Source of the DNA: a virus | Virus record (IMG/VR): IMGVR_UViG_3300044961_000702 | Location: 1-21,461 of that record | Strand: one strand, 5' to 3' | DNA: 21,461 nucleotides | Part shown: positions 2,982 to 21,461 of the stretch, one piece after another | Layout of the letters: each line of letters starts with the position of its first letter | Numbering within the stretch: position 1 is the stretch's first letter | Program-made: the position numbers and the translations under genes | Notes under the pieces: generated by a model | The model's input: the letters and a program-made list of their open reading frames with translations, nothing else | Database searches by the model: none | Told to the model about the DNA's origin: nothing

Positions 2982-4807
2982 GCAACGTCATCCGCGCCCA
3001 TCTCGGCTCGGCCTCCCGCGCCTCCGGCAGCAACCAGGGGCGGCGCATGCCGCCTGGCTGCCCGGTCACGCCGCTCGGCGGCGACGGGCGGACCTTCCAC
3101 TACATCAACGCCATCGGCCAGTACGTGGCGATCGAGGCGCAGCAGCACTCGAAGAACATCATCACCGCGCTCTTCGCGCCGCACGACGAATGGCTGCGCA
3201 AGGCCTACCCCAAGACCTTCGACAAGGAGAGCGGCGAACCGCGCGACTTCGCGGTCGCCGACGTGACCCGCGACCTGATGGCCGAGGCGCAGTCCCGCGG
3301 GAAGTCCTGGGAGCCGGCCGACAACATCCGCGGCCGCGGCACCTGGCCGGGCGAGGACGGCAACCTGCGCGTGCATCTGGGCAACCGCCTGATCGTCGGC
3401 GGCCAGGAGCGCGAGGTGGGTGTGATCGGCAACCAGGTCTATCCGCTGTGCCCGGAGTGGAAGGGGCCGGCGCCCGACGCGCAGGCCGATGGCCCGGCGG
3501 GCCCGGCGGCCGAGGCGCTGGCGCTGCTCGGCTCCTGGCGCTGGGCCGAGCCCGAACTCGCGCCGCGGCTGCTGCTCGGCTGGATCGTCTGCGGCTTCCT
3601 CTGCGGCGCGCTCGACTGGCGGCCGCATCTGTGGCTGGTCGCCCCGCGCGGGGCGGGCAAGTCCACGCTGCTCGAGGCCATCGGCCACATGCTCCAGCGC
3701 GGCTCCTACGCGCTGATGTCCGAAAGCGCCTCGGCGCCCTCCGTGCGCGGCACGCTGAAATTCGACGCCCGCCCCGTGGTGCTCGACGAGACCGAGCCGA
3801 GCGAGGACAACCGCCAGCTCAACCAGGTGGTCGATCTGATGCGCATCGCCTCCACGGGCGGCACGGTGATGCGCGCGCAGGTGGACCAGACCACGGTGAT
3901 GCAGACCGTGCGCTTCGTGGCCATGTGCGCCTCGGTGGTGCGGCCGGCGCTGAAATCGCAGGACGCCAGCCGCATCGCGGTGCTGCAGCTCCTCAAGCCG
4001 CTGCCCGGCGCCGCCGCGCCGCTGCTGCGCCCGGCGGTGCTGGAACTGCTCGGCCGGCGCCTGTTCCGCCGCGCGCTCGACGGCTGGAAGCGCTGGCCCG
4101 AGACGCTGCACGCCTGGCGCAGCGCGCTTGCCGCCGAAGGCCTCGAGGCGCGGGCGCAGGACCAGTATGGCGCCCTGCTCGCCGCCGCCTGGATCGCCGA
4201 GCAGGACCTCGAGCCCGACAGCGACAGCCTGGCCGAATGGGCGCGCATGGTGGCCGAGGCCACGGCGCCCGACCGCGCGGAGGAGCGGCCCGAATGGTTC
4301 CGCCTGGTCGAGACGCTGGCCGCGACGCCGATGAAGGACCAGGACGGGCGGGCCGAGCGCAGCGTGGCGGAGCTGCTCGAGACCGCGGCGCAGGCGCGGC
4401 GCGACTGGGACCCGGAGACCGGCAGCTACATCCAGGTTTCCGAGCAGCGCGCGGCCGCCGCCAACGATCTTCTCGGGCGGCACGGGCTGCGCTTCCAGCC
4501 CATGCGCGACGAGAAGGGCAGACCGCTCCGCCGCGCCTGGGACGACCCCGCCGCCGAGCCGGCCAGCCAGCACAACGGGCCGCTCATCGGCCATGTGGCG
4601 ATCGCCAATGCGCATCCGGTGCTGGCGCGCCTGCTCGAGCGGACGCAATGGGCGGCGCGCGCCGGCGCGCCGGGCGCCTGGAAGGGCGTGCTGTTGCAGG
4701 CGCCGGGCGCGATGGCTGCCGACTGCGTGCGCTTCAACGCGCGCACCGCGCGGGCGGTGCTGGTGCCGCTCGATCTCTTCCTCGACGGGGCGGCGGCGCA
4801 TGAGTAG
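2978..4807 (+). CDS. P-loop phage helicase/primase-type ATPase
   Basis: This is a 609-residue product starting at GTG 2978, which has a perfect AGGAGG and a GTGA overlap with the Toprim gene. Residues 1-180 form an N-terminal domain (FHYINAIGQYVAIEAQQHSK onward) like that preceding the ATPase domain of DUF927-type or primase-helicase phage proteins. A Walker A motif APRGAGKST is at 222-230 and a Walker B motif VVLDETE has D270-E271. It probably unwinds the origin or fork in partnership with the Toprim primase; phage and plasmid elements often carry such a pair. The C-terminal part (about 370-609) is helical and unrecognised. The last 8 bases overlap the terminase start at 4800. The exact helicase superfamily is uncertain. 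Confidence 0.8.
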   Translation: MSNVIRAHLGSASRASGSNQGRRMPPGCPVTPLGGDGRTFHYINAIGQYVAIEAQQHSKNIITALFAPHDEWLRKAYPKTFDKESGEPRDFAVADVTRDLMAEAQSRGKSWEPADNIRGRGTWPGEDGNLRVHLGNRLIVGGQEREVGVIGNQVYPLCPEWKGPAPDAQADGPAGPAAEALALLGSWRWAEPELAPRLLLGWIVCGFLCGALDWRPHLWLVAPRGAGKSTLLEAIGHMLQRGSYALMSESASAPSVRGTLKFDARPVVLDETEPSEDNRQLNQVVDLMRIASTGGTVMRAQVDQTTVMQTVRFVAMCASVVRPALKSQDASRIAVLQLLKPLPGAAAPLLRPAVLELLGRRLFRRALDGWKRWPETLHAWRSALAAEGLEARAQDQYGALLAAAWIAEQDLEPDSDSLAEWARMVAEATAPDRAEERPEWFRLVETLAATPMKDQDGRAERSVAELLETAAQARRDWDPETGSYIQVSEQRAAAANDLLGRHGLRFQPMRDEKGRPLRRAWDDPAAEPASQHNGPLIGHVAIANAHPVLARLLERTQWAARAGAPGAWKGVLLQAPGAMAADCVRFNARTARAVLVPLDLFLDGAAAHE

Positions 4808-12449: not shown

Positions 12450-13091
12450 ATGCGCGACCCCCGCGCGAGCCGCGGCTACCGCAACCGCAACCCCGGCAAC
12501 ATCGACTGGAACGAGCGGAACAAGTGGCAGGGGCAGGTCGGCCGCGAGGCTACCGGCAACCCGCCGCGCTTCGCCGTGTTCGAGAGCCACGAATACGGCA
12601 TCCGCGCGCTTGCCGTGTTGCTCATCACCTACCAGGACCGCCACGGGCTGCGCAGCATCGCGGGCATCATCAACCGCTGGGCGCCGGGCAACGAGAACGA
12701 CACCGCCGCCTACATCGCCCATGTCGCGCGGCTGACCGGGCGCGACCCGCATGAGCGGCTGGACCTGCACCGGCACGAGGACCTCAAGCCGCTGGTCACG
12801 GCCATCATCATCCACGAACTCGGCGGCAACCCCTACGACGAGCGGACAATCGAGGAAGGCCTGCGGCTCGCCGGCGTGCCGCGCCCCGTGACCACGCTGC
12901 GCGAGGCCGCCGCCACCGGCACCGGCCATGGGGCGATCACCGTCGGCGCCGTCGCCTCCGCCGCCGCGGCCGCCGCCCCGGCCATCGAGGCGCTCGGCGG
13001 CCTGCCGCCCTGGCTCGGCGTGGCGCTGGTGCTCGGCGCGGCGGCGGTGGCGGTGGCCATGGTGCTGGCGCGCCGGACCAGGGCCGCATGA
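12450..13091 (+). CDS. Endolysin (muramidase-like) with C-terminal membrane segment
   Basis: This is a 213-residue product. The N-terminal 130 residues carry RGYRNRNPGNIDWN, W-Q-G-Q, F-A-V-F-E-S-H-E-Y-G-I-R-A-L-A, IINRWAPGNENDTAAYIAHV and AIIIHELGGNPY. This is the pattern of phage muramidase-like proteins often annotated 'structural protein P5'. It should degrade peptidoglycan at lysis. E in FESHEYGIRA is a candidate catalytic residue (inference). An Ala-rich linker and a strong transmembrane segment (PPWLGVALVLGAAAVAVAMV, about 183-203) with a basic end follow. The tail could anchor or store the enzyme at the inner membrane. The stop overlaps the next ATG (ATGA). Confidence 0.85.
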   Translation: MRDPRASRGYRNRNPGNIDWNERNKWQGQVGREATGNPPRFAVFESHEYGIRALAVLLITYQDRHGLRSIAGIINRWAPGNENDTAAYIAHVARLTGRDPHERLDLHRHEDLKPLVTAIIIHELGGNPYDERTIEEGLRLAGVPRPVTTLREAAATGTGHGAITVGAVASAAAAAAPAIEALGGLPPWLGVALVLGAAAVAVAMVLARRTRAA

Positions 13092-13434: not shown

Positions 13435-14037
13435 ATGGACGACTACACCGTGCTTGCCATCGGCAACGAGGCGCTGGCCATGCTCGGCGCGCAGGCGGTG
13501 GCGCAGGTGGATGAGGGCTCCGACATCGCCGCGACGCTCTTCCGCATCGGGCCCACCACGCTCGCGCAGGTGCTCACCGCCCATCCCTGGGCCTGCACGC
13601 TGGCGCAGCCGCGGCTGACCAGGCTCGCCGACCCGCCCGGCAACGGCTTCCGCTACGCCTATGCCATGCCCGCGGGCCTGCTTGTGTTCCGCCGCGCCCT
13701 GGCTTCGCCCCTGCCGGGCGCGCCCTCAATCGGCCGCTGGCGGATCGTCGGCGAGGAACTGCACACTGATGCCGAGGAAGTCTATGCGGATGTGCAGCGC
13801 GAGCCGCCGCTCGAAGCCTGGCCGCCGCATCTGCGCGCCTTCGCACGCGCGGCGCTCGCCGCCGACCTCGCCCTGACCGTCACCGGCAGCGGCAACGACG
13901 CGCAGTTCTGGACGCAGCGCGCCTGGGGCAGCGGCGACCAGTCGCTGCTCCAGCAGGCCCGCCGGGTCGAGGCCCAGCAGCACACGCCTGCGGCGATGGA
14001 GGACTGGCCGCTGCTCGCCGCGAGGTTCGGCGGATGA
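13435..14037 (+). CDS. Tail tubular protein A (T7 gp11-like)
   Basis: This is a 200-residue product, a typical length for gp11-type proteins. The N-terminus (VLAIGNEALAMLGAQAVAQV, D-E-G-S-D-I-A-A) and the segment LTAHPWACTLAQPRLTRLAD are characteristic of the family. So are RYAYAMPAGLLVFRR and the later RAFARAALAADLALTVTGS with QFWTQRA. The protein forms the upper ring of the short tail and sits directly on the portal. The stop overlaps the start of the tail tubular protein B gene (ATGA). Confidence 0.85.
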   Translation: MDDYTVLAIGNEALAMLGAQAVAQVDEGSDIAATLFRIGPTTLAQVLTAHPWACTLAQPRLTRLADPPGNGFRYAYAMPAGLLVFRRALASPLPGAPSIGRWRIVGEELHTDAEEVYADVQREPPLEAWPPHLRAFARAALAADLALTVTGSGNDAQFWTQRAWGSGDQSLLQQARRVEAQQHTPAAMEDWPLLAARFGG

Positions 14038-15758
14038 GGACGCTGCGCGCCATCCAGACCTCCTTCACCGCGGGCGAGCTCGACCCGCGCCTTGATGCGC
14101 GCATCGAGGTCAGCCGCTACTATTCCGGCGCTTCACGGCTCCGCAACGTGGTGGTGCTGCCGCAGGGCGGCATCCAGCGCCGCCCCGGCCTGCGCCACCT
14201 CGACACGCTTCCGCCCGAGGCGGCCGCGGCGGTGCGCCTCGTGCCCTTCGCCTTCTCGGCCGCGCAGACCTTCCTCATCGTCCTCTACCCTGGCGGCTTC
14301 CGCGTCTATCGCGGCAATGACGGCACGCATCTGTTCACCGGCACCTGGCCGGGCACCGCCACCGAGGCGGCGCAGGTGAACTGGGCGCAGTCCGCCGACA
14401 CGCTGCTGCTCTTCCATCACAACCTGTGGCCGCACCGCATCCGGCGCGAGGGCAGCGACACGTCCTGGTCCTCGGCCTCGCAGGTGTTCACCAACATCCC
14501 CAACCACGACTACGGCGCCGGCCCCGAGCCGATGATCAGCGTCACGCGCGGCTGGCCCGAATGCGGCACCTTCCACCAGGGCCGGCTGTGGATGGGCGGC
14601 CTGCGCTCGCGCCCGGCCACGCTGATCTCCTCGCGCGTCGGCGACTACTTCGACCTCCAGGTCGGCACGCTCGACGACCAGGCGATGGTGCTGACCATCG
14701 ACAGCGACCAGTTGAACCAGATCCACCAGCTCATGTCGCACCGGGGCTTGCTCATCTTCACCTCGGGCGCCGAGCACGCCATCACCGTCGCGCCGCCCAT
14801 CACCCCCACCAACGTCGCCATCGAGGAGCAGTCGCGCCGCGGCATCAAGCGCTTCGCCCGCCTCGACGAGGTGGACAGCGCCATCCTGTTCATCCAGCGC
14901 GGCGGCGCGGCGCTGCGCCAGTTCGTCTATTCGGAGCTGGAGCAGACGTGGCAGGCGGAACTGCTTTCCCTGCTCGCGCCCCACCTCATCGCCGACCCGC
15001 GCGATGTGGTGATCCGCAAGGCCGCAGTGCAGGACGATGCCGACCTGGTGCTGCTGCCCGATCCCGCCGGCATCACCGCGCTGAGCACCCTGCGCAGCCA
15101 GGAGGTCGCGGCCTTCACCCGCTGGAGCACCGACGGCGCGGTGCGAGGCGCGGCCGCGCTGGTCAACGGGCAGACTTTCGTGGCGGTGGAACGCGACGGG
15201 GCGGTGCGGCTTCTGCTGCTCGACCCCGCATCCCTGCTCGACCATTCCCTGCGCTATTCCTTCGGCAGTCCGGTTTCCTCCCTGACCGGCCTCTCGCACC
15301 TCAACGGGCGCGAGGTGGTGATGCTGCTCGACGGCCGGCCGGAGGGCACGGCCATCGTCTCGGGCGGCACGCTCGCCCTGCCGCGCGAGTGCCTGACGGC
15401 CGAGATCGGCCTCGGCTTCGAGGTGCAGGCCAGGACGATGCCGATCGAGCCGCGCGACCCGGCCGGCGCGATGATCGGGCGCAAGAGCCGCTTCATCCGC
15501 GTGACGGTGCGCGTGCATCGCTCCGGCCCCTTCGACCTGCGCAACGCCACGCTGGCCACGCGCACGCTCGGCGGGCCGCCGGCGCCGCCGCTCGACATCG
15601 TCCCGCCGCCGCCGCCCGATCCGGTGAGCGGCGAGGTCGCCGTGGAGGGGCTGCTCGGCTGGCACCCGCAGCAGAGCCTCGAGATCACCCAGCCGGCCAC
15701 GCGCCCCGCGCCGCTCACCGTGCAGGCGCTGGCCATGACCGTCGCCGTGGGGGGCTGA
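14034..15758 (+). CDS. Tail tubular protein B-like (T7 gp12-type nozzle)
   Basis: This is a 574-residue product. The N-terminus shows the family hallmark TSFTAGELDPRLDARIEVSR, Y-Y-S-G-A, then LRNVVVLPQGGIQRRPG. The middle is a series of beta strands suiting a propeller-like nozzle. The C-terminal region has a Pro-rich linker (PPPPPDP) and ends with SLEITQPATRPAPLTVQALA, which typically closes such proteins. It is shorter than T7 gp12 (about 790 residues). It should extend the tail tube below tail tubular protein A. It overlaps that gene by 4 bases, and 2 bases separate it from the next. Confidence 0.85.
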   Translation: MRTLRAIQTSFTAGELDPRLDARIEVSRYYSGASRLRNVVVLPQGGIQRRPGLRHLDTLPPEAAAAVRLVPFAFSAAQTFLIVLYPGGFRVYRGNDGTHLFTGTWPGTATEAAQVNWAQSADTLLLFHHNLWPHRIRREGSDTSWSSASQVFTNIPNHDYGAGPEPMISVTRGWPECGTFHQGRLWMGGLRSRPATLISSRVGDYFDLQVGTLDDQAMVLTIDSDQLNQIHQLMSHRGLLIFTSGAEHAITVAPPITPTNVAIEEQSRRGIKRFARLDEVDSAILFIQRGGAALRQFVYSELEQTWQAELLSLLAPHLIADPRDVVIRKAAVQDDADLVLLPDPAGITALSTLRSQEVAAFTRWSTDGAVRGAAALVNGQTFVAVERDGAVRLLLLDPASLLDHSLRYSFGSPVSSLTGLSHLNGREVVMLLDGRPEGTAIVSGGTLALPRECLTAEIGLGFEVQARTMPIEPRDPAGAMIGRKSRFIRVTVRVHRSGPFDLRNATLATRTLGGPPAPPLDIVPPPPPDPVSGEVAVEGLLGWHPQQSLEITQPATRPAPLTVQALAMTVAVGG

Positions 15759-15760
15759 CA

Positions 15761-16288
15761 ATGGGCGTGGACATCGCGGTCTATGCAGCCATCGCATCGG
15801 CGATCGCCGCAGCGGCGACCGCCGGCAGCCAGATCATGCAGGCGCAGCAGCAGGGCACCGCGCAGCGCAACCAGGCCGCGCTCGACCAGATCCGCGCCCG
15901 CCAGCAGGAGCTCGAGGCGCGCGGGGTCGAGGCCCGCGGCACCGCCGAGGCGCTGGACGTGCGCGAGAACCTGCTGCGCACGCTCGCCGCGCAGAACGCG
16001 CGCTATGCCGCCTCCGGCCTGATGCTCGAGGACGGCACGCCAGGCGCGGTGGCCGAGGAGACGCGCGCGGATGCCGAGCGCCAGCTCGACATCCTGCGCA
16101 CCAACACCACCATCGCGGCCGAAAGCGCGCGCATCGGCGCCGCCCAGACGCAGCAGCGCGCGCTGCTGCTGCGCGACCAGGCCGGCTTCACCACCACGGC
16201 CGGCTATGTGGGCGCCGCCGCCACCGCCGCCCGCGCGGGTCTCGACGCCTACAACCGCTCGCCCGGCTCCGTCAGGACCAGCCAGTGA
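15761..16288 (+). CDS. Internal virion protein, T7 gp14-like
   Basis: This is a 175-residue product from the ATG at 15761 with a G-rich ribosome site. The N-terminus is hydrophobic (IAVYAAIASAIAAAATAGSQIM). The rest is a long Ala/Gln/Arg-rich helix with the common pattern ENLLRTLAAQNARYAASGLM, then EDGTPGAVAEETR, typical of this virion family. Such proteins are ejected first and form a channel across the outer membrane for DNA entry. The stop overlaps the next GTG (GTGA). Confidence 0.8.
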   Translation: MGVDIAVYAAIASAIAAAATAGSQIMQAQQQGTAQRNQAALDQIRARQQELEARGVEARGTAEALDVRENLLRTLAAQNARYAASGLMLEDGTPGAVAEETRADAERQLDILRTNTTIAAESARIGAAQTQQRALLLRDQAGFTTTAGYVGAAATAARAGLDAYNRSPGSVRTSQ

Positions 16289-19200
16289 GCCTGCCCCCGC
16301 TCCGCCGCCAGTCCGGCGCCATCCCGCTCCTGGAAGGTCGCGCCCTGCCGCAGCCGCTGCGGCCCACGCCATCGGCCGAGATGCCGGCGGGCGGCGCGGC
16401 CGCGGCCAGCCTCGCGGCGCGGCTCGAGCGGCTGGGCGCCGAACTCTCCGCCACCGCCGACCGCGCCGCGGCCGAGGAGGCCTGGAACGCCGGCACCGTG
16501 GCGGGCGAGGCCAACCCCGGTGCGCAGATGCAGGGCGGCGGCGTGCTCTACCGCACCGCCTTCAACCGCGCCGCGGTGGATGCCTCCGCCCGGCGGCTCG
16601 AAATCCGCACGCGGGAGGAACTGGCCCGCGCCTTCGAGGCCAACCCCGCCGACCCCGAGGCCTTCGCCGCCGCCGCGCAGTCCTGGCGGGAGCAGACGCG
16701 CCAGGGCCTGCCCGAGCATGTGGCCGCCATCTTCGCCCAGCGCTTCGACGCCATCGCGCTGCCCTATGCCAACCAGGCGCGGGAGAATTTGCGCCGCCGC
16801 GTGGCCGATGACGCTGTCTCCACCTACAACGCCGCGCTGCCGGGCCGCGTGGCGGACCTCGAGCGCGCCGCCAGCCAGGCGCTGGCCGACCCGGCGGCGG
16901 CGCGGGCCATGCGCCAGATCGAGGACCAGGCGGTGGCCGAGGCCGTCGCGCTCGGCCCGCGCGAGGCCTTCGAGGCCGGCGGCCGCCGCTTCCCCGCCGA
17001 CCCCTCCCGCACCGGCGCGCTGACCGCCGCGCAGGTCACGGAACAGATCCAGAAGGTCGAGCGCGCGCGCACCGACGCCGCGGTGATGGCCGCCTGGCGC
17101 GCCGCCGGCGGCGGGCTGCAATGGATCGTGGACTTCGAGCGCAACGGCGCGACGCCCGGTTTCAGCCCCTTCGCCCAGCGCCAGGCCGCGCAGGGCCGCG
17201 CGCTCGGCACCGTGGACGCCTTCGCCGCGCGCGTGCCGGAGGCCTGGCGGCCGATCGCCGAGCAGGCGGCGCGCGAGAACGGCCTGCCGCCCGCGCTGCT
17301 GCTGGCGCTGCTTGGGGTGGAAAGCGCCGGCAATGCCCAGGCGCGCAGCCCGGCCGGCGCCGTCGGCCCGGCCCAGATCCTGCCCTCCACCGCGCGCGAT
17401 CCGGGCATTCCCGGCCTCGAACCGCTGCCCGAGGCGGCGCTGACCGACCCGGCGCGCGCCATCCCCTGGGCGGCGCGCTACCTCGCCGGGCTGCGCGAGC
17501 GCTTCGGCGGCGACATCGGCAAGGCGCTCGCCGCCTACAACGCCGGCATGCGGCGCGTGGAGCGCGCCGAGCGCGAGGGCGCCGACCTGCCGGCCGAGAC
17601 GCGCAACTACCTCGCCACGCTGATGCCCGCGGCCGCCGGCGCCGGCGGCGCGCTGCCCTCGGCCGAGACGGCGCGCATCGCCGCCCGGCTTCGCGCCACC
17701 CATGCTGCCGAGACGCAGGCGGCCGCGGCAGGGCAGGCGGCCCAGCGCGCCGAGCTCGAGCGCCAGATCGCGGAGAACCTCGCGGCCATCGGCGTCAATG
17801 GGCGGCCCGTGCATGTGCTGAGCGAGGCGCAGCTCGCCGCCGCCGGCCTGGATCCCGCCCGCGTGCTGGAACGCGAGCGCATGCGCGCCGAGGCCTATGC
17901 GGCGGACCAGACGGCGCGGCTGACGGTCAGCCCGCAGGCCTTGCAGGACCTGGCCGCCTCCTTCGCGCCGGGCACCGACAATTTCCGCGCCGACCCCGAG
18001 GCCGCCACCCGCCTGCTGGCCATGCTGCGCCAGCGCGGCGTGCAGATCGCCAATGTCGAACTGGCCGAGCGCATCCGCGACCTGAGCACCGAGGCCCAGG
18101 CGACCGGCCAGCGCCGCTCCATCACGGCGGAGGAGGGCGCGGCCGCCGGGCTGACGCCCGAAAAGGTGGCCGAGATCAACCGCGACCTGGCGCTGGCGGG
18201 GGACACCGGCGCCATCCGGCGCGAGGCGGCCGGCCTGCCCGAGGCCGAGCGCGAGGCCTTCCTCGCGCGCTTCCCGCTCACCGGGCCGGAGGCGCACCGC
18301 AACGCCCAGCGCGTGCGCGCCACCGCCGAGGCCTTCGCCGAGCGCGACCGCGCCGTGGCGCAGGACGCCGCCGCCTATGCCATGGCGGGCAGCCCGATCC
18401 TGCGGGAACTGGGCGGGCGCATCGCGGCTGGCGACTGGAACGCGCTCGGCCCCTTCATCCGGCAGATGCGGGCCGAGCAGGAACTGCTCGGTATCGCGCA
18501 GGCCGCGCGGCGGGACCTGCCGAAACCCTTCGTGGAGGCGCTCTATCAGCGCATCGCGAACAGTCCGGATGCGGACGCCGCCTGGGCGGCGCTGGCCAGC
18601 CTGACCGAGGCTGCGGGCCTGCCGGCGGTGCAGCGCATCGTGCGCGAATGGCGGCCCGAGGGCGAGCGGCAGGACGACCGCCGCCGCGCCATCGTGGTGG
18701 CCGCCGCCCTGCGCGGCCAGGACGACGAGACGGCGCGGCTGGTGCTGCGCGGGGCCTTCGTGCTCAGGGACAATCCGATGCCGGCCTCGACGCGCCAGAC
18801 GGTGCAGGAGGCAGTGGACAGACACGTCCGCGGCGCGCTGGAACGGCAGCCCGGCGTCCGCGCCGACATCACCGCCGCGGCGGTGGCCGCCGCCGCGGCC
18901 ACGGCCATCGGCGAAGGCCGCATGGCTCGGCCCGCCAGCGCAGGCGATTTCGGCGCGGTGCTCGAACGCATGGCACCCGTGACCACCTATGCCGGCGAAC
19001 GCACCATGCTGCCGCCGGGCATGGGAGAGCGCGCCTTCCACGACCTGCTGGCCGCCCTGCCGCCCGAACGCCTGGATGGCGCGGAGGCACAGGACGGAAG
19101 GCCGATTACCCCGGCCATGCTGGCGCGGGGCGACTTCATCCTGCGCGCCGTGGCCCCGGGCCGCTACATGCTGCGACTGGGCACGCATGTCGTGCCCGAC

Positions 19201-19353
19201 GCGCGCCGGCCGGGCGAGGCCTTCATCCTCGACCTCAACGGCGCCCAGCCCGCGCCTGCCGCGGCCGCGCGGCCCGCCGGCGAGTCCGACCGCCGCCGCG
19301 CCTCCCCGCGCAGCCTGGTGCGGCCGATCGAAGGATGGGAGGACGAGCCGTGA
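16285..19353 (+). CDS. Large internal virion protein with lytic transglycosylase (SLT) domain
   Basis: This is a 1022-residue product from GTG overlapping the preceding stop. The SLT domain lies near residues 330-450: LLALLGVESAGN with catalytic-type Glu346, GAVGPAQILPSTARDPG, then ALAAYNAGMRRVE and LPAETRNYLATLM. It probably opens peptidoglycan during DNA ejection, as T7 gp16 does. The surrounding regions are long Ala/Glu/Arg-rich helices with no further recognised domain. The final 150 residues are more globular (ITPAMLARGDFILRAVAPGR). The SLT domain is internal instead of N-terminal as in T7 gp16, which is usual in related podoviruses. The stop overlaps the next GTG. Confidence 0.88.
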   Translation: MSLPPLRRQSGAIPLLEGRALPQPLRPTPSAEMPAGGAAAASLAARLERLGAELSATADRAAAEEAWNAGTVAGEANPGAQMQGGGVLYRTAFNRAAVDASARRLEIRTREELARAFEANPADPEAFAAAAQSWREQTRQGLPEHVAAIFAQRFDAIALPYANQARENLRRRVADDAVSTYNAALPGRVADLERAASQALADPAAARAMRQIEDQAVAEAVALGPREAFEAGGRRFPADPSRTGALTAAQVTEQIQKVERARTDAAVMAAWRAAGGGLQWIVDFERNGATPGFSPFAQRQAAQGRALGTVDAFAARVPEAWRPIAEQAARENGLPPALLLALLGVESAGNAQARSPAGAVGPAQILPSTARDPGIPGLEPLPEAALTDPARAIPWAARYLAGLRERFGGDIGKALAAYNAGMRRVERAEREGADLPAETRNYLATLMPAAAGAGGALPSAETARIAARLRATHAAETQAAAAGQAAQRAELERQIAENLAAIGVNGRPVHVLSEAQLAAAGLDPARVLERERMRAEAYAADQTARLTVSPQALQDLAASFAPGTDNFRADPEAATRLLAMLRQRGVQIANVELAERIRDLSTEAQATGQRRSITAEEGAAAGLTPEKVAEINRDLALAGDTGAIRREAAGLPEAEREAFLARFPLTGPEAHRNAQRVRATAEAFAERDRAVAQDAAAYAMAGSPILRELGGRIAAGDWNALGPFIRQMRAEQELLGIAQAARRDLPKPFVEALYQRIANSPDADAAWAALASLTEAAGLPAVQRIVREWRPEGERQDDRRRAIVVAAALRGQDDETARLVLRGAFVLRDNPMPASTRQTVQEAVDRHVRGALERQPGVRADITAAAVAAAAATAIGEGRMARPASAGDFGAVLERMAPVTTYAGERTMLPPGMGERAFHDLLAALPPERLDGAEAQDGRPITPAMLARGDFILRAVAPGRYMLRLGTHVVPDARRPGEAFILDLNGAQPAPAAAARPAGESDRRRASPRSLVRPIEGWEDEP

Positions 19354-21461
19354 GCGGCGTGCTCGGCCTCGCGCCAGAAGTCCGGCCCCTCGCCTGGAAC
19401 CCGCTGCCCACCGCGCCGCGCACCGCGGCCGAGCGCTTCCGCCTCAGCCTCGAGGCGCAGCTCGCCACCGGCAACTGGGCTTCGGAGGAGCGCAACCTGC
19501 GCCTCGCCTTCGACGACGCCGCCGGCGCGCTGCGCGAGGCCGGCGCGCAGGTCGAGAACCCCTTCGAGGCGGGCGAGTGGCAGGGCAGCTTCCTCAACGA
19601 CATCAACGCCGCCGCCCGGCGCCTCGCCGCGCCCGTCATCGCCGCGCCGCTGGCCCGCCAGGCGGAGCAGGAGCGCCGCCGCCGCGAACTGGCCTGGGAC
19701 CAGGCCGTGACCCGCCTGCGCGAGGAACGGCCCGAGGAAGCCGAGCGCTACCTCTACACCCACGAAATCCGCGCCATGGCCCGCCGCCGCGCGCAGAACG
19801 CGGCGGCCGAGGCGGCCGCGCCCGAGGATCTCGGCGGCGGCCTCGGCGCCTTCGCGGGCTCGGTCGCCGGCGTCTTCGCCGACCCCATCCAGGTGCTGAC
19901 CCTGCCGCTGGGCGCGGGCCGCATGGCCGGCACGGTGCTGGCGCAGGTGGCGCGCACGGCGGCGATCGAAGGCGCCATCGCCGGGGCGACGCAGGCGGTG
20001 GTGGAGACCCGCGCCGGGCCCTACCGGCAGTCCCTCGGGCTGCCGGACGACAGCCTTGCGCAGGTCGGGATGGCGGCGTTGGGGGGCGCCGTCATCGGCG
20101 GCGGGGTGCGTGCGCTGCTGGCCGGGGCGGAGCGGCTGGCGGCGCGCGCCCCCGCCGGCTCGCCGCTCCAAGTCCAGGCCGCGGATGCGCAAGCGCTGGC
20201 GCAGACCCAGGCGATGGACGCCGCCGCCGCGCCAGCCGCGCCGGAGCGCGCCAATGCCCACCTCGGCGCCCTCGATCAGGCGGTGCGCCAGCAGGTGGCG
20301 GGCGAGACCGTCACCGCCAGCCTGCCGCCGCCCGACCGCCGTGTCCTGGCTGCCTGGATCGAGCAGCCGCCGCCCGAGCGCGAGGCCGAGGCCATCCGCG
20401 CCTTCGTCCAGCGCGCCATCGGCCAGGCCGACGGCCGCGTGCGCGGCATCAGCGGTGGCTGGCTGAGCGAGGAGGAAGCCCGTGCGCTGCGCGCCGAGGG
20501 GCTGCCGGTCGGCACCGAGACCGCGCGGGTCCTGGTCACCGACCGGGTCCGGCACGCCTGGCTGCATCACGGGCCGGACGCGGCGCGGCCGGATGGCGCG
20601 CCGCCCATCACGGCCGAGGACATCGCCAATTGGCGCGAACTGATCCGGGCCGCGCTCGACGCACAGCCGACGCGCACGGGCAGCGGCCAGCCGGCGATGA
20701 CCTATCTGGTGCGCGACGCCCAAGGCAGGCTGGTGGTCATCGAGGAATACCGCGCCCGCACGGGCGTGCTCGCCTTCTCGAACATGTATCGGCTGCCGGA
20801 CGGCCATGGCGCGACGCGGCTCGAGCAGGTGCCCGGCATGCGGGAGCGATTGACGGCGGCGCGCGGGGCACCCCCAGTGCCCAATGCCGACCCTGCCGCG
20901 GCAAGGTCCCCTGAGCATACGTCCGCAACGCCTGGGGGCTTGCCGAAATTTCTGCCAGAGGCGGCCGGCCGCTTCAACGTCTATACGCCGACCGGCCGCG
21001 CCGTGCTGGTCGAGCCGCGCGTCGTGCCCCTCTCCGCCCTGGTGCCGAGCCACGGCCCCGACGGCACGCCCAACCCCGCCTATCCGCATGCCGAGGGGCT
21101 GCAGCCGCGCGATCGCGGCGCCGCGCCCAGCCAGGACCAGGTGCGCGCCATCGCCGCCGGCCTGATCCCGGACCGCCTGCTGCCCAACGTCGAGGCCGGC
21201 ATGGGCGCGCCCATCGTCCACGGTTCCGACAACGTTGTCGAAAGCGGAAACGGCCGCGTCGCCGCCCTCACGCTGGTGCATCGCGACCCCGCGCTGGCGC
21301 ATGTGCGGGAGGCCTACCTCGCCGCGCTGGAACGCGCGGGCTTCGACCTTGCGCGCATTGAGGATCCGGTGTTGGTCTCGGCCCGCGTCAGCCAGTTGAG
21401 CCCGGCCGAGCGCATCGCCTTCGTGCGGGAGGCGAACCTGCGCGGCACCGCCGCCGAGACG
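19350..21461 (+). CDS. Polyvalent internal virion protein with PBECR-type nuclease-like segment and ddrB-like ParB domain (3' end outside window)
   Basis: At least 704 residues from GTG 19350 (GTGA overlap), with no stop before the edge. Residues 1-150 are helical and charged. Three Gly/Ala-rich hydrophobic stretches (about 160-187, 200-220, 238-262) look like internal ejection-protein membrane segments. Residues about 385-490 (RVLVTDRVRHAWLHH with H402, H406 and H407, then ITAEDIANWRELIRAAL, VVIEEYRARTGVL, FSNMYRLP) resemble phage Barnase/EndoU/ColicinE5/RelE-like nuclease domains. From about 555 a ddrB-like ParB-superfamily domain follows: NPAYPHAEGLQPRDRG (Q585 to R589), SQDQVRAIAAGLIPDRLLP, then ESGNGRVAALTLV (E631 to R636). 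Combining virion and effector domains defines polyvalent proteins, and more domains may lie beyond the edge. The ParB-like call is firm; the nuclease call is moderate. Confidence 0.8.
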   Translation, partial: MSGVLGLAPEVRPLAWNPLPTAPRTAAERFRLSLEAQLATGNWASEERNLRLAFDDAAGALREAGAQVENPFEAGEWQGSFLNDINAAARRLAAPVIAAPLARQAEQERRRRELAWDQAVTRLREERPEEAERYLYTHEIRAMARRRAQNAAAEAAAPEDLGGGLGAFAGSVAGVFADPIQVLTLPLGAGRMAGTVLAQVARTAAIEGAIAGATQAVVETRAGPYRQSLGLPDDSLAQVGMAALGGAVIGGGVRALLAGAERLAARAPAGSPLQVQAADAQALAQTQAMDAAAAPAAPERANAHLGALDQAVRQQVAGETVTASLPPPDRRVLAAWIEQPPPEREAEAIRAFVQRAIGQADGRVRGISGGWLSEEEARALRAEGLPVGTETARVLVTDRVRHAWLHHGPDAARPDGAPPITAEDIANWRELIRAALDAQPTRTGSGQPAMTYLVRDAQGRLVVIEEYRARTGVLAFSNMYRLPDGHGATRLEQVPGMRERLTAARGAPPVPNADPAAARSPEHTSATPGGLPKFLPEAAGRFNVYTPTGRAVLVEPRVVPLSALVPSHGPDGTPNPAYPHAEGLQPRDRGAAPSQDQVRAIAAGLIPDRLLPNVEAGMGAPIVHGSDNVVESGNGRVAALTLVHRDPALAHVREAYLAALERAGFDLARIEDPVLVSARVSQLSPAERIAFVREANLRGTAAET

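Follow-up and report, generated by a model that had tools for sequence, protein, structure and literature searches.

A putative polyvalent ejection protein with an exchangeable nuclease-like cassette and a ddrB-like ParB domain in podoviruses of Acetobacteraceae

Our comparison of near relatives at the sequence level showed that a cassette situated between the ejection-type N-terminal part and the ddrB-like ParB domain of one large phage protein is swapped or lost. This exchangeable cassette is the main feature of the protein and was absent from the earlier note on this DNA. Within a T7/epsilon15-like group of podoviruses found in Acetobacteraceae, the protein itself probably serves as a polyvalent internal virion (ejection) protein, which would unite a channel component, DdrB-like protection and a swappable RNase payload. 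The window, that is the whole stretch of DNA analysed, represents an entire virus record of 21,461 bases; the target gene is therefore cut by the contig edge.

The gene, its neighbours and the ejection-type N-terminal part

The features of the late region on which the analysis is based are the following:

14034..15758, + strand: tail tubular protein B-like gene (PHROG 376, E 9.5e-105), used as the bait for relatives
15737..16288, + strand: internal virion protein (PHROG 418, E 7.8e-10), with the limits of the frame and an approximate start
16285..19353, + strand: ejection protein of 1,022 aa with an SLT lytic transglycosylase domain (PF01464, E 4.3e-21; PHROG 342 and 2013)
19350..21461, + strand: polyvalent ejection protein gene (the target gene), an open frame whose 3' end is cut by the contig edge
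19350..20332, + strand: conserved ejection-type N-terminal part, residues 1-328, delimited by PHROG 342 and by DNA identity with the relative L066

The target frame starts with a GTG at 19350; this codon overlaps the TGA that ends the upstream ORF (16285-19353), and a GGAGG-type ribosome site precedes it. As the earlier note had stated, the frame runs off the window edge, with 704 codons and zero stops, and its G+C content is 0.92 at the third codon position and 0.81 and 0.56 at the other positions. That note had also advised reading beyond 21461; the record ends there, and complete relatives were used for the 3' end instead. Since the nearest complete relatives of the protein measure 985-1032 aa, a full gene of about 1,000-1,030 codons is expected.

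The window corresponds to a podovirus late region, with a head-tail adaptor, a major head protein and two tail tube proteins upstream of the target. The gene order (tube A, tube B, PHROG 418 internal virion protein, SLT ejection protein, target gene) together with the PHROG 342 match bears out the earlier placement of the gene where T7-like phages encode ejection proteins. In the prophage of Rubritepida flocculans DSM 14296 (L013) the target gene is followed by a PHROG 684 virion structural protein and then by a T7-type tail fibre. Elsewhere in the window, a gene for a 213-aa protein (12450-13091), located between those for the major head and tail tube proteins, matches PHROG 873 'endolysin' with 221 bits at profile positions 354-566 of 1277, and its product is a possible second cell-wall enzyme besides the SLT protein. 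A Toprim primase-like gene (1608-2981; PF13362, PHROG 510) and a helicase/primase-like gene (about 2990-4807; PHROG 35358) form a pair directly upstream of the terminase.

Residues 54-285 of the target protein match PHROG 342, 'internal virion protein with endolysin domain', weakly (E 1.2e-5, with residues 1-334 as query); the N-terminal part of L065 gives E 2e-9, and the match was obtained in the window and three relatives. Hydropathy agrees with the hydrophobic Gly/Ala segments claimed earlier, placing Gly/Ala-rich stretches around residues 165-190 and 235-260, and the N-terminal part is helical in the AF2 model at moderate confidence. Both marks of podoviral ejection proteins of the T7 gp15/gp16 type, a position after the tail-tube genes and a relation to gp16, were found here, the similarity being weak. 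The location in the ejection cassette suggests that this large protein of a short-tailed phage is probably injected with the DNA. The two adjoining genes 16285-19353 and 19350-21461 match PHROG 342 at positions 17-234 and 198-416, respectively, which suggests an ejection protein that may be split or fused between phage groups.

When viral contigs were scanned with the window protein as sole query, zero matches were obtained. Relatives were gathered through the tail tube B gene, which yielded 54 loci, 9 of them with the target gene whole or in part; an alignment-based scan added more copies, including the Rubritepida prophage, and a search of Acetobacteraceae genomes supplied others. Few of these bacteria have the ddrB-ParB domain, which scores above the cut-off in 7/397 genomes of the Rubritepida family and 3/385 genomes of its class.

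The exchangeable cassette and its PBECR-type domains

Four features mark the central region of the protein:

20333..20963, + strand: exchangeable cassette, residues about 328-539, where DNA identity with L066 stops (gene nt 983) and resumes (nt 1615)
20463..20801, + strand: PBECR3-like domain, residues 372-484, assigned through PF18812 scores of homologues and an independent profile
20553..20555, + strand: His402, helix histidine with a putative catalytic role in the BECR fold, kept in nearly all PBECR3 rows
20781..20783, + strand: Asn478 (codon AAC), aligned where most relatives have Thr or Ser

L066 is the closest full relative of the window, with DNA identity of 82% up to gene nt 983 and 83% from nt 1615; the 631 bp in between are unalignable, and the slot holds a PBECR3-like domain in the window and a PBECR1-like domain in L066. 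L065 and L088 are 87% and 87% identical in the DNA flanking about 560 unalignable bp, and their proteins are 88% and 85% identical in the flanks with nothing alignable between; L065 carries PBECR3 in the slot and L088 carries PBECR1 above the cut-off. PBECR1 occupies the slot of L012 as well. In the comparison of L069 with L089 (59% and 70% protein identity in the flanks), about 195 aa are present in L089 only, where the slot contains PBECR3, and the slot of L069 is empty. A further clade of relatives is devoid of the insert and keeps the rest of the protein. The left junction is a Pro-rich linker, LPPP in close relatives and LPGP in L013. PBECR3-type and PBECR1-type inserts gave neither an alignment nor profile-profile similarity with each other. 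Divergence from PBECR3 to PBECR1 in place was rejected, because the profiles are dissimilar and flanks of ~87% DNA identity leave too little time for it.

The segment had been described earlier as Barnase/EndoU/ColicinE5/RelE-like. It is of BECR type, namely PBECR3, as judged from its homologues, and the window copy by itself stays below threshold, with 17.2 bits against PBECR3 (PF18812) at a curated cut-off of 30. The same segment in relatives scores 26.2 (L013), 41.5 (L065) and 52.9 bits (L089), the latter two passing the 30-bit cut-off. Against an independent profile, for which 11 PBECR3 sequences from unrelated genes were used, the window segment reached 29.2 bits, and the best of 2,000 shuffles reached 6.0. 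The profile search of two segments proposed in the earlier note returned ParB clearly and PBECR3 with the support of homologues and a shuffle control. The window segment is classed as PBECR3-like by descent and is not counted as a family member on its own score.

A helix histidine is expected in BECR RNases (PMC5512222), and the window retains it as His402. The C-terminal Thr/Ser of the PBECR3 active site is absent from the window; this position is Thr in L013 and L065, Ser in L089 and Asn also in L080. The activity of the window copy is doubtful because Asn478 replaces the usual Thr/Ser, so that the former reading of an active effector is weakened. The payload of the window may be weak or non-catalytic, and the copies of L013, L065 and L089 look intact. 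Asn478 may also be a sequencing error. In the PBECR1 slot of L088, GLSYII stands in place of the GLAHII of L012 and L066, and the helix histidine is apparently missing. Catalytic residues may thus be lost repeatedly, and inactivity may extend to several cassettes.

The AF2 model of the slot consists of helices followed by three strands, an order that fits BECR, at a mean pLDDT of only 46.9. Being too poor, this slot-only model was not suited for a structure search, and a longer AF2 model gave no Foldseek match below E 0.001. No match was returned by tblastn of the slot alone against phages, and against plasmids a single weak Rhodococcus match (E 0.1) was left unused. Sequence search of the PDB gave nothing meaningful, and NCBIfam and PADLOC scans gave nothing useful. 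Matches to PF11130 TraC (E 0.028) and CheZ (E 0.16) were set aside as due to chance or composition.

The ddrB-like ParB domain and the C-terminal region

Two features complete the part of the protein contained in the window:

20994..21386, + strand: ddrB-like ParB domain, residues 549-679 (PF18763, E 1.8e-20; 32-36% identity with P1 DdrB)
21387..21461, + strand: start only of the DdrB-type C-terminal region, which is complete in L013, L012, L065 and L066

The ParB-superfamily domain with LQPRDR and ESGNGR signatures, recognized earlier by eye, was readily confirmed: PF18763 matched with 73.7 bits against a curated cut-off of 27.6, over profile positions 3-120 of 121, and scored higher in relatives than in the window. 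LQPRDR corresponds to residues 584-589 and VVESGNGR to residues 629-636, and the arginines of LQPRDR and ESGNGR are invariant across the alignment of 13 relatives, in agreement with the conserved Arg that the family has in its active-site pocket and for which each of them is a candidate. The AF2 model of residues 541-695 is fairly confident over a large part and displays an alpha+beta pattern.

Unknown domains had been anticipated beyond the edge. The relatives reveal instead a DdrB-type C-terminal region only, with one exception that carries a zeta-toxin domain. Complete relatives of the window's group have about 310-350 residues past the ParB domain, a region in which Pfam detected no catalytic family, and the HExxH motif of a P1 DdrB-type zincin metallopeptidase was absent from 9/9 relatives checked. 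Longer tails beyond ParB than in the window's group were seen in L090 and L091; an apparent RelA/SpoT-like tail in L091 received no confirmation from Pfam. L090, an Acetobacteraceae genome contig, encodes an ejection-type relative devoid of the middle nuclease, whose C-terminal part harbours an inserted zeta-toxin domain (PF06414, 52.6 bits), a site that represents a possible second payload position. A motif with the usual form A-A-x-C-[LVAMF]-[IFL]-[GR]-G and a nearly invariant Cys lies in the last 10-15 residues of most complete relatives, including distant ones and Piluca/TPWB-05; it may perhaps serve in packaging or in membrane or partner contact.

Proposed function and relation to known systems

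For the polyvalent ejection protein, which we favour, we infer head packaging, ejection with the DNA, action of PBECR on RNA and DdrB-like protection. The helical, Gly/Ala-rich N-terminal part would be packaged in the head together with its SLT-bearing neighbour and would join a trans-envelope channel at ejection, as its position and the weak profile matches suggest. The ParB domain and the C-terminal region would enter the cell with the leading DNA and shield it from early host defence, a role modelled on P1 DdrB in the Dar system; DdrB forms part of the P1 virion (PMC9024508), and the co-ejected Dar proteins act against type I restriction (PMC12810830). The cassette would be the slot in which small metal-independent RNase-type domains (PBECR3 and PBECR1, fold families assigned by profile) are carried as payload; these may act on host or defence RNA right after entry. 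The exchange of the payload, shown by the alignments, would proceed as swap, gain or loss through recombination at the Pro-rich linkers that flank it, with the backbone left unchanged. More tentatively, with slightly less than even confidence, we consider the slot a dedicated one, in which RNases from mutually unrelated BECR families, and a zeta-toxin kinase at another point of the polypeptide, are swapped at fixed Pro-rich junctions onto a constant injection backbone, so that the first protein to enter the cell would be retargeted against changing RNA-based defences; copies like that of the window may be in an inactive stage.

A mainly structural function appears unlikely but deserves the most attention among the alternatives. 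The protein would then be a gp16-like channel component, with the PBECR-like and ParB domains acting as non-catalytic nucleic-acid binders that hold or guide DNA or RNA in the head. Such a role would accommodate Asn478 in place of Thr/Ser and the several relatives that keep the rest of the protein without a slot domain, and it has precedents in the inactive PBECR domain of phage Mu gp30 (PMC5512222) and in P1 DdrB, listed as aiding DarB into the capsid (PMC9024508). However, the swapping of unrelated BECR families, with His and Thr/Ser mostly kept, fits selection on activity better.

That the slot is merely a fast-evolving linker or an unrelated fold, with a chance weak PBECR3 score and no nuclease, is very improbable: the sub-threshold score of the window and the poor structure model would be expected of it, but the above-cut-off scores of L065 and L089 largely refute it, and the shuffle-controlled independent profile and the presence of PBECR1 in the same slot argue against it as well. 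BECR domains are common in polymorphic toxins and bacteriocin-like effectors, where payload exchange is typical. An effector of this kind directed against neighbouring cells, with immunity encoded nearby, would therefore be in keeping with the use of BECR domains in such toxins (PMC5512222), but is the least probable reading of all. The gene sits in the ejection cassette, the structural gene of the Rubritepida prophage lies within about 170 bp downstream and leaves no room for an immunity gene, and Pfam found no export signal or toxin delivery domain.

With an ejection-type part, a PBECR3-like domain and a ddrB-ParB domain, the favoured polyvalent ejection protein combines at least two disparate domains in one phage polypeptide, the mark of polyvalent proteins. 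It resembles T7 gp16/PHROG 342 in position, the gp16 plan being as if split over two genes, at weak similarity; T7 gp16 is not known to possess either a ParB or a PBECR domain. Fusions of PBECR with DdrB-ParB, including Helicobacter jhp1044, were described in 2017 (Iyer et al., PMC5512222), along with lysozyme and DdrB-ParB fusions and mosaic domain exchange in Helicobacter phages. The suggestion of the earlier note that the domain order may be new does not hold for this combination and holds for the podoviral ejection setting. As in the polyvalent proteins of Iyer et al., PBECR and a DdrB-like ParB occur in one late-context protein; unlike those, the carrier is a T7/epsilon15-like ejection protein of ~1,000 aa with one nuclease slot and no zincin peptidase motif (HExxH). 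The Acinetobacter/Alcaligenes epsilon15-like podophages Piluca and TPWB-05 share the place in the ejection cassette, the ParB domain and the C-terminal region, but have an SLT transglycosylase before ParB, whereas the window's group encodes SLT separately, in a gene of its own upstream. The likeness to P1 DdrB covers ParB and about 80 residues after it. P1 DdrB, a virion protein, has a C-terminal metallopeptidase according to PMC5512222, whereas relatives of the target have no HExxH; no darA/darB operon like that of P1 Dar was noted in the window.

Two points are new: that such a protein belongs to a T7/epsilon15-like ejection cassette of Acetobacteraceae phages, and that exchange at its single slot is sharp to the nucleotide. 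A single odd gene is thereby turned into a comparative system, with either PBECR3 or PBECR1 on near-identical backbones and an empty slot in related ones; one member resides in Rubritepida flocculans DSM 14296, a host in culture. Backbones differing only in the cassette would allow a direct test of the function of injected BECR domains, a question left by the 2017 survey.
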